From Gammaproteobacteria bacterium (GTDB taxonomy: Bacteria; Pseudomonadota; Gammaproteobacteria; Pseudomonadales; Halieaceae), in NCBI GenBank assembly GCA_030426545.1, contig JAUHYL010000002.1:1-64000 (forward strand): a stretch of DNA of 64,000 bases, written 5' to 3'. Shown piece by piece: positions 467 through 3,119 of the stretch (positions within the stretch are counted from its first letter, which is position 1; every line of letters starts with the position of its first letter). The translations under genes and the position numbers were made by a program. The notes beneath the pieces were generated by a model that did not search any database, was not told where the DNA came from, and worked only from the letters and a program-made list of their open reading frames with translations.

Positions 467-1143
467 TCAGTTTTGATCGTGTCACCAAGCGCTACGAAGC
501 AGGCCATGATGCCCTGCGCGAGGTCAGCTTTGATATCGAAAAAGACGAACTGGTTTTTCTGACGGGCCACTCGGGTGCGGGCAAAAGCACTCTGCTGCGC
601 CTCATCATGCTGATGGACAGGCCCACACGGGGGCAGGTGACCATCGATGGCCGCAACCTCTCATCGGTCGGCAAGCGCGCCATACCGGCCCATCGGCGCG
701 GCATCGGCGTGGTTTTTCAGAACCACCGCCTGCTGTTTGACCGCACGGTATTCGATAACGTCGCGCTGCCGCTGATCATCGCGGGCTATGATCATCGCGA
801 AATAGGCCGCAGAGTCCGTGCAGCGTTGGATAAGGTAGGACTGTTGCGGCACGAACATGCCATGCCGCTGAGTCTTTCCGGCGGCGAGCAGCAGCGCGTG
901 GGCATTGCACGAGCGGTTGTCGGGCGTCCCAACATCCTGCTCGCGGACGAACCCACGGGCAACCTGGATCCAGAGTTGTCCGCCGAGATCATGCGCTTGT
1001 TCGAAGCGTTCAATCAGGTGGGTGTAACCGTTCTGATTGCCAGTCACGACCTGGTGCTTATTTCGCGTCTGCACCACCGCATATTGACGCTGAAGGACGG
1101 CCGCCTTATCAGCGGCGCCAGCGGCCCGGGTGACGCGTTATGA
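463..1143 (+). CDS. ftsE: Cell division ATP-binding protein FtsE
   Basis: ABC-type ATPase of the FtsEX complex, which sits at the division septum and activates periplasmic peptidoglycan hydrolases through FtsX. The protein has 226 residues, the usual length. Seen: Walker [10 protein letters not shown] (residues 35-43), ABC signature LSGGEQQR (138-145) and Walker B ILLADEP (158-164). The start is the ATG in the ATGA overlap with ftsY. An in-frame opening further upstream lies inside ftsY and is not used. It overlaps ftsX by another ATGA, so ftsY, ftsE and ftsX form a coupled transcription unit. Confidence 0.97.
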
Positions 1144-2123
1144 CCGGTTCCGCGGATAAGGCAACCCGACGCGGTGGCGCCAGCCTGAGCCGTGCCGATC
1201 TCAGGGATCGTTACAAAGCCTGGCTGCAACATCACCGCCTCTGCGCAGCCGACAGCCTGGCAAAGGTACTGGAGGCACCAGTCGCCAGCCTGCTGACCTG
1301 GCTGGTGATCGGGATCGCGCTGGCGCTGCCGGTGGGGCTCAACGTCGCCCTGGAAAATGTGCAGCGCCTCAGCGAGGGCTGGGACAGCCCGGCGCAAATG
1401 TCCGTTTTTCTGCAGCAGGACGTCAGTGTGGAGCAGGGCGACCGTATGCGCGAGGAATTCAGCGCGCGCGCCGACGTCGACAAGGTCATTTTCCTCTCCC
1501 GGGATGCAGCGCTGGCGGAGTTCAGCAGGCTCTCGGGTTTTGCGGATGTGGTCGCCAGCCTGGAGTCCAACCCGCTGCCGGATGTTCTGCTGGTTACACC
1601 TGCCAGCGCGCTGTCGGAAGTGGGGATCAGCACTCTGCGCGAAGAAATGGCGACTCGCGAAGGCGTGGCAGAGGTAGTGCTGGATATGGCCTGGTTGAAA
1701 CGCCTGCAGCACCTCATGACACTGGGGCAGCGGTTTGTCCTCGCGGTTGGCGTGATGTTGATACTGGGTGTCGTGCTGATCCTGGGCAATACCATTCGCC
1801 TTGCGATTGAGAGCCGGCGCGAGGAAATAGTGGTCGTGAAACTGGTGGGTGGGAGCAGTGCGTTCGCGCGGCGGCCCTTTCTGTATACCGGCCTGTGGTA
1901 CGGCGTGGGGGGCGGACTGGCTGCCGGTCTGCTCGTCAGCGCTGCGCTGTGGTATCTGGACGAGCCGGTACGGGTGCTTGCAGGACTGTACGAGAGCAGT
2001 TTTTCCCTGCTTGGGCTGGGTCTGATGGGGGTGCTCAACCTGGTCATTCTGGGCGGCGTGCTGGGTCTGGCGGGCGCGTGGTTGGCCGTCGCCCGTCACC
2101 TGGTGCGGATTGAGCCACGCTGA
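1140..2123 (+). CDS. ftsX: Cell division permease-like protein FtsX
   Basis: Membrane partner of FtsE that transmits ATPase-driven changes to septal murein hydrolase activators. It has 327 residues. A cytoplasmic N-terminus of about 50 residues is followed by a first membrane segment (about 51-70), a periplasmic domain (about 71-195) and three C-terminal membrane segments (about 199-219, 247-274 and 289-318), the normal FtsX layout. The ATG overlaps the ftsE stop (ATGA). About 140 bases separate it from rpoH, and that gap holds its own regulatory element. Confidence 0.96.
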   Translation: MTGSADKATRRGGASLSRADLRDRYKAWLQHHRLCAADSLAKVLEAPVASLLTWLVIGIALALPVGLNVALENVQRLSEGWDSPAQMSVFLQQDVSVEQGDRMREEFSARADVDKVIFLSRDAALAEFSRLSGFADVVASLESNPLPDVLLVTPASALSEVGISTLREEMATREGVAEVVLDMAWLKRLQHLMTLGQRFVLAVGVMLILGVVLILGNTIRLAIESRREEIVVVKLVGGSSAFARRPFLYTGLWYGVGGGLAAGLLVSAALWYLDEPVRVLAGLYESSFSLLGLGLMGVLNLVILGGVLGLAGAWLAVARHLVRIEPR

Positions 2124-2200
2124 CGGCCATGCCATCTTAACTTGCTGTATTTTAAGGCTTTTGTGTGTTTTTTTGGTGTGCGTGCGGAACTTTTCCGACG

Positions 2201-2227
2201 TTAGCACTCTAAGGTAAAGAGTGCTAA
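2201..2227 (+). promoter_or_regulatory. CIRCE element (HrcA operator) in front of rpoH
   Basis: Perfect inverted repeat TTAGCACTC (2201-2209), a 9-base spacer, then GAGTGCTAA (2219-2227). This matches the CIRCE consensus TTAGCACTC-N9-GAGTGCTAA bound by the heat-shock repressor HrcA. It lies 34 bases before the rpoH ATG. A possible sigma70 pair is embedded in it: -35-like TTAGCA (2201-2206) and -10-like TAAAAT (2225-2230), 18 bases apart, so bound HrcA would block transcription. The sequence match is direct observation; control by HrcA is inferred. Confidence 0.93.
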
Positions 2228-2261
2228 AATCGTCTTGCAAACTGGAAGAGGGCCTGCAGAC

Positions 2262-3119
2262 ATGAGCAAGGGCATACAGCCGTTCGAACAGTTGGTTCCG
2301 GGAGCCAATCTTACCGCCTATGTGCAGGCGGTGAGTACTATCCCGGTTCTCAGTGCGGAGCGCGAGCGCGAGCTGGCGGAAGCGCTGTATTACAACGACA
2401 ACCTCGACGCTGCACGTGAGCTGGTGATGTCCCACCTGCGCTTTGTCGTGCACATTGCTCGCAGTTACTCCGGCTATGGCCTCGCCGAGGCGGATTTGAT
2501 CCAGGAAGGTAACGTCGGCCTGATGAAGGCAGTAAAGCGCTTCAATCCCGAGAAGGGCGTGCGTCTGGTGTCCTTCGCTGTTCATTGGATCAAGGCGGAG
2601 ATGCATGAGTTCATTCTGCGCAACTGGCGCATCGTCAAGGTTGCAACTACCAAGGCGCAACGCAAACTGTTCTTTAATCTGCGCAGTGCGAAGAAATCAC
2701 TGGCCTGGCTGACGCGAGATGAGGCGCAGGCCGTTGCCGACGACCTCGGCGTGGATGTCAGTGAAGTGCAGCGTATGGAAGGCCGTCTCAGCAGCCGCGA
2801 TGTAGGCTACGACCAGCCGGCCGACGCGGATGACGACGACAGCAGCTGGTACGCGCCGCAGTTCTTTCTGGAAGACAACAGCATGAATCCGGCGCAGGTG
2901 GTCGAATCAAGCGATTGGCAGGAAGACAGCGAAGGCAGGCTGCACGCGGCACTGGCCGATCTCGACGAGCGCAGCCGGGACATTCTGGCGCAGCGCTGGT
3001 TGTCCGAAGAAAAGGCCACCCTGCATCAGCTGGCAGACACGTACGGTGTTTCGGCGGAGCGTATCCGCCAGCTGGAAGCCAATGCGATGAAAAAGCTGCG
3101 CACAGCGCTGGCAGCCTGA
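2262..3119 (+). CDS. rpoH: RNA polymerase heat-shock sigma factor RpoH (sigma 32)
   Basis: Sigma factor directing RNA polymerase to heat-shock promoters. It has 285 residues from the ATG at 2262, which follows a GGAAGAGGG stretch; an upstream in-frame TTG adds nothing conserved. Seen: region 2 residues [19 protein letters not shown], the RpoH-box signature QRKLFFNLR (133-141) and a C-terminal helix-turn-helix ([17 protein letters not shown]). Expression is probably controlled by HrcA through the CIRCE element just upstream, as well as by the usual RNA and protein-stability controls of the family, which cannot be seen here. A strong terminator follows. Confidence 0.97.

Follow-up and report, generated by a model that had tools for sequence, protein, structure and literature searches.

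The heat-shock sigma factor gene rpoH of the source genome is preceded by a perfect CIRCE element, the operator of the repressor HrcA, which is interlocked with a sigma-E type promoter and with a sigma-70 type extended -10 promoter. The best explanation of this layout, and one that we regard as very probable, is a composite promoter-operator of 45 bases (2186-2230) at which HrcA would block both rpoH promoters. The association of CIRCE with rpoH is neither peculiar to the source genome nor wholly new, and it follows the presence of hrcA across the genomes compared.

The rpoH locus and its regulators

The features of the locus are listed in Table 1. A perfect CIRCE over the rpoH promoter had been claimed in the preliminary description of this DNA and is borne out by an exact match to TTAGCACTC-N9-GAGTGCTAA. 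The site is separated from the rpoH start by a gap of 34 nt, and no second CIRCE with up to three mismatches was found in the 64-kb window, i.e. the whole stretch of DNA that was analysed. A chance origin of the element is ruled out by shuffling, as none of 100 shuffled windows contained a match; at the class level, none of 1600 shuffled upstream regions contained a CIRCE with up to three mismatches. The open reading frame behind the site matches TIGR02392 (RpoH equivalog) with 396.9 bits (cut-off 323.1), and the nearest named RpoH loci, titled Haliea and Halioglobus, show 81-84% identity, which most likely places the source organism in the Halieaceae (Gammaproteobacteria).

Table 1. Features of the rpoH promoter region and its flanking genes.
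Feature	Position	Strand	Remarks
ftsX, upstream gene	1140..2123	+	ends 77 nt before CIRCE; TIGR00439 above cut-off
GGAACTT, -35 of sigma-E (RpoE) type promoter	2186..2192	+	begins 15 nt ahead of CIRCE and ends 8 nt before it
CIRCE (HrcA operator)	2201..2227	+	perfect, 0 mismatches; conserved in family and class
TCTAA, -10 of sigma-E type promoter	2208..2212	+	15 nt after the -35
TGC-TAAAAT, extended -10 of sigma-70 type	2222..2230	+	CIRCE right arm plus conserved AAT
GAAGAGGG, probable ribosome binding site of rpoH	2245..2252	+	sequence as read; putative function
rpoH, heat-shock sigma factor sigma-32	2262..3119	+	ATG at 2262; 285 aa (stop included)

The whole genome (4.35 Mb in 141 contigs, 97.85% complete) contains two CIRCE sites with up to three mismatches, one at rpoH and one at groES. 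The preliminary description had proposed to search it for hrcA and for CIRCE at groESL and dnaKJ. A single hrcA is present, intact and full length (TIGR00331, 322.6 bits against a cut-off of 197.2, and a PF01628 match), and it is followed by open reading frames that read by eye as grpE, dnaK and dnaJ. CIRCE was recovered at groESL, and none with up to three mismatches was found at the hrcA-grpE-dnaKJ cluster. RpoE is also encoded (TIGR02939, 322.4 bits, cut-off 236.15), and the gene directly after rpoE encodes an RseA-like protein with an RseA_N match. A pattern scan of the 400 nt upstream of rpoE yielded no clear GGAACTT-type promoter; its one hit was a TGAACC that has no fitting -10.

Two predicted promoters interlocked with CIRCE

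The -35 element of RpoE is given as GGAACTT (PMC8103513) and the -10 element of sigma-E is quoted as TCAAA (PMC4890791), from which TCTAA at rpoH differs by one base. This TCTAA joins the two final bases of the left arm of CIRCE (TC) to the first three of its spacer (TAA). The pattern GGAACTT-N15/16-TC[AT][AGC]A has a single match in the window, GGAACTT-N15-TCTAA (2186-2212). When the family sequences are aligned on CIRCE, GGAACTT stands upstream and the CIRCE spacer opens with TAA.

The right arm of CIRCE together with the adjoining AAT forms an extended -10 (TGn-TAnnnT), and thus two promoters share one operator. A weak -35, TTAGCA, is located at 2201-2206 with a spacer of 18 to TAAAAT, and TTAGCA-N18-TAAAAT (2201-2230) was the sole sigma-70-type site that a promoter scan found in 2090-2300. 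The -35/-10 pair that the preliminary description had overlapping CIRCE is therefore real, but it constitutes a second promoter with an extended -10, the main conserved one being of the sigma-E type. The frequency of these elements at CIRCE sites ahead of rpoH and at groES is summarized in Table 2.

Table 2. Promoter elements at CIRCE sites of rpoH in three samples and at CIRCE sites of groES.
Element	Family	Order	Class (best 80 of 131 genomes)	groES
[GT]GAAC at -17..-14 from CIRCE	55/57	12/12	41/62	0/31
TCNNA at the -10 place	55/57	11/12	49/62	3/31
-35 and TCNNA jointly with CIRCE (sigma-E pair)	54/57	11/12	39/62	0/31
TAnnnT of the extended -10	57/57	12/12	56/62	3/31

The background rate of [GT]GAAC is 0.0018 per position. 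Among the class sites (best 80 of 131 genomes), TCNNA accompanies the -35 in 39 of 41 cases, compared with 10 of 21 sites that have no -35 at the usual place (p 3.6e-5); the two halves of the putative sigma-E promoter covary in the class. Three Luminiphilus-like Halieaceae (L139, L140, L142) have lost both the -35 and the A of TCNNA; at their rpoH, CIRCE is still perfect and the AAT is in place. The 21 of 62 class sites without the usual -35 (best 80 of 131 genomes) include six with a sigma-E-like pair wholly upstream of CIRCE; at the remaining 15, the upstream pattern detected no such pair.

Conservation and co-occurrence with hrcA

The family sample consisted of 60 genomes including the source genome, 59 of which have an RpoH match and 57 a readable upstream region; G046 (no RpoH match) as well as G038 and G047 (contig ends) were left out. 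Conservation of the palindrome in relatives, on which the preliminary description had made its proposal depend, proved complete in this alignment: all 57 readable genomes carry CIRCE at rpoH, 47 with a perfect site and ten with one mismatch. Of the 60 family genomes, 57 yielded an hrcA match. In the order, the upstream region could be read in 35 genomes, G081 with its truncated rpoH being left out. The class sample contained one genome per family and was restricted to the 80 best-scoring of the 131 genomes that, apart from G000 and G094, have an RpoH match. Within these best 80 of 131, CIRCE with zero to two mismatches precedes rpoH in 62 (36 perfect, 21 with one and five with two mismatches), and six more genomes have a site with three mismatches. 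According to these counts, the arrangement is common outside the order.

Among 80 named loci, CIRCE with up to two mismatches is located ahead of rpoH in 14, comprising all loci (12/12) titled Haliea, Halioglobus, Parahaliea, Sediminihaliea, Luminiphilus or Halieaceae, one Ketobacter locus and one unclassified locus. None was found at this threshold in the other 66 named loci, many of which are from Pseudomonas. The loci of Parahaliea mediterranea and Sediminihaliea albiluteola (L134, L135) show the same arrangement as the source genome. Outside the class, three of the 15 best-scoring loci, all from one genus, have a one-mismatch CIRCE ahead of rpoH. These loci (L343, L346, L349) belong to the same phylum and have no GGAAC at the usual place; in two further loci of their family (L340, L347), the rpoH copy that was read has no CIRCE.

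CIRCE at rpoH is apparently kept with hrcA and lost without it. In the order, all 11 genomes with hrcA have a site with up to three mismatches, versus two of the 24 without hrcA (p 1.9e-7). The corresponding numbers for the class (best 80 of 131 genomes) are 62 of 65 versus six of 15 (p 3.7e-6), and with a limit of two mismatches 57 of 65 versus five of 15 (p 4.5e-5). Putative control of rpoH by HrcA is supported by these distributions.

Exceptions exist in both directions. CIRCE at rpoH without an hrcA match occurs in six class genomes (best 80 of 131) and in two order genomes. Four of these assemblies are incomplete (G100 62%, G193 73%, G061 75%, G198 85%) and four are near-complete (G188 and G169 99%, G222 98%, G075 96%); the missing hrcA of the latter four would reflect an assembly gap or a recent loss. 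The class genomes (best 80 of 131) with hrcA and without CIRCE at the rpoH examined are G126, G166 and G207. G126 has two rpoH genes, on contigs C289 and C325, only one of which carries CIRCE, and this is its second rpoH.

Of 39 genomes without hrcA, 17 still have a sigma-E-like pair upstream of rpoH, compared with 1.5% in shuffled sequence, and some of these loci, e.g. that of G068, resemble by eye a decayed CIRCE around a retained -10. Both observations suggest that hrcA and the operator may have been lost while the sigma-E promoter was retained, which would correspond to the state of E. coli P3.

Proposed mechanism and competing explanations

Several features were observed directly: the sequence elements with their conservation and their absence or rarity at groESL, genes for HrcA, RpoE and an RseA-like protein in the genome, and the co-occurrence of CIRCE with hrcA. 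From these we infer HrcA binding, the use of both promoters and the following circuit logic. RNA polymerase with sigma-E would read GGAACTT-N15-TCTAA, RpoE being held by RseA until envelope stress occurs, and the sigma-70 polymerase would read the extended -10 TGC-TAAAAT. An HrcA dimer on CIRCE would cover the sigma-E -10 as well as the extended -10, and would therefore block both promoters. HrcA activity depends on GroE in Helicobacter, Bacillus and Chlamydia (PMC6032397), and with such a dependence full transcription of rpoH would be expected only when unfolded proteins titrate GroE. Once GroE is busy, HrcA would release rpoH and groESL, while envelope stress would free sigma-E to drive rpoH. 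Sigma-32 and the release of HrcA would then jointly raise GroESL, and upon recovery of GroE, HrcA would become active again and shut off rpoH. The sigma-E promoter would thus act as a gate for "envelope stress and GroE exhausted", the other promoter as a gate for "GroE exhausted".

Several other explanations have to be weighed against this composite promoter-operator. HrcA could repress rpoH via the sigma-70 type promoter alone, with GGAACTT being unused. The single sigma-70-type site in 2090-2300, with TG before its -10, is in line with this, as is TAnnnT, which is steadier than the sigma-E pair in the family, the order and the class sample (best 80 of 131; Table 2). We nevertheless consider it unlikely, because GGAAC or TGAAC is found at the same place in almost all family sites and in every order site, far above its background rate, and because the -10 letters of the sigma-E type covary with the -35. 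Slightly more doubtful is the idea that HrcA binds, yet most rpoH transcripts originate farther upstream, at another promoter or by read-through out of ftsX, so that the operator would be of minor importance. It would fit the position of ftsX on the same strand, 77 nt upstream of CIRCE, and the lack of a terminator-like site in 2090-2300, but an operator of low effect would hardly be this conserved, nor be lost together with hrcA.

The palindrome could also work at the RNA level rather than as a DNA operator, folding the leader of the rpoH transcript into a hairpin or thermometer. An inverted repeat near the start codon of rpoH invites this explanation, since E. coli rpoH is known for its heat-sensing mRNA. 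It is nonetheless very improbable: the arms correspond exactly to the HrcA operator and show no compensatory variation, the presence of the palindrome tracks hrcA, and the conserved letters of the spacer and the flank are promoter-like and one-sided. In addition, with the predicted transcription starts the left arm would be transcribed barely or not at all.

Relation to known systems

The textbook picture of sigma-32 control comes from E. coli, in which rpoH transcription counts for little beside translation and protein stability. If the composite promoter-operator is confirmed, a repressor that senses GroE and is interlocked with an envelope-stress promoter would control the sigma-32 gene in many families of the class, and three heat-shock systems would converge within 45 bases. 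We lean towards the view that this interlocked control of rpoH is ancestral in Gammaproteobacteria, with HrcA as the top-level sensor that sets the ceiling for sigma-32, and that the rpoH promoter read by sigma-E only in bacteria such as E. coli and Pseudomonas is a remnant after the loss of hrcA. The arrangement can be tested in the culturable relatives Parahaliea mediterranea and Sediminihaliea albiluteola, and the genomes offer a natural series of operator decay following hrcA loss.

A CIRCE ahead of rpoH has been predicted before in Geobacter sulfurreducens (Rodionov et al. 2004, PMC545781, Table 8). The perfect consensus and the gene are the same as here, the site being located at -51 from the translation start, and groESL is likewise the constant other HrcA target (PMC545781). 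Unlike here, the prediction concerns a single genome of another lineage, its listing passes over promoter overlap without comment, and hrcA-grpE-dnaKJ carries CIRCE (PMC545781), whereas no site with up to three mismatches was found at this cluster in the source genome. The bare link between CIRCE and rpoH is not claimed as new, because an assignment of rpoH to HrcA may already stand in regulon databases, RegPrecise among them. For the interlocking of CIRCE with the sigma-E promoter and its class-wide spread, no earlier report turned up in searches of openly licensed literature.

As such, rpoH is known to be under sigma-E control in both E. coli and Vibrio (PMC8103513, PMC4890791). At P3 of E. 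coli, as proposed here, RpoE reads rpoH from a GGAACTT-type promoter (PMC8103513). E. coli is given as lacking HrcA in the survey that covers it (PMC545781) and had no match to the PF01628 (HrcA) profile, and its rpoH has therefore no operator, in contrast to the source genome, where the -10 sits inside CIRCE.

The classical CIRCE of groESL, with the same operator and repressor, is also present in the source genome. Different from rpoH, CIRCE at groES is flanked by a TTGACT-type promoter upstream and, immediately downstream, by the sigma-32 type promoter CTTGAAA-N12-CCCCAAT. This groESL layout (G000:C81:15188-15214, L002) is found alike in several family genomes.
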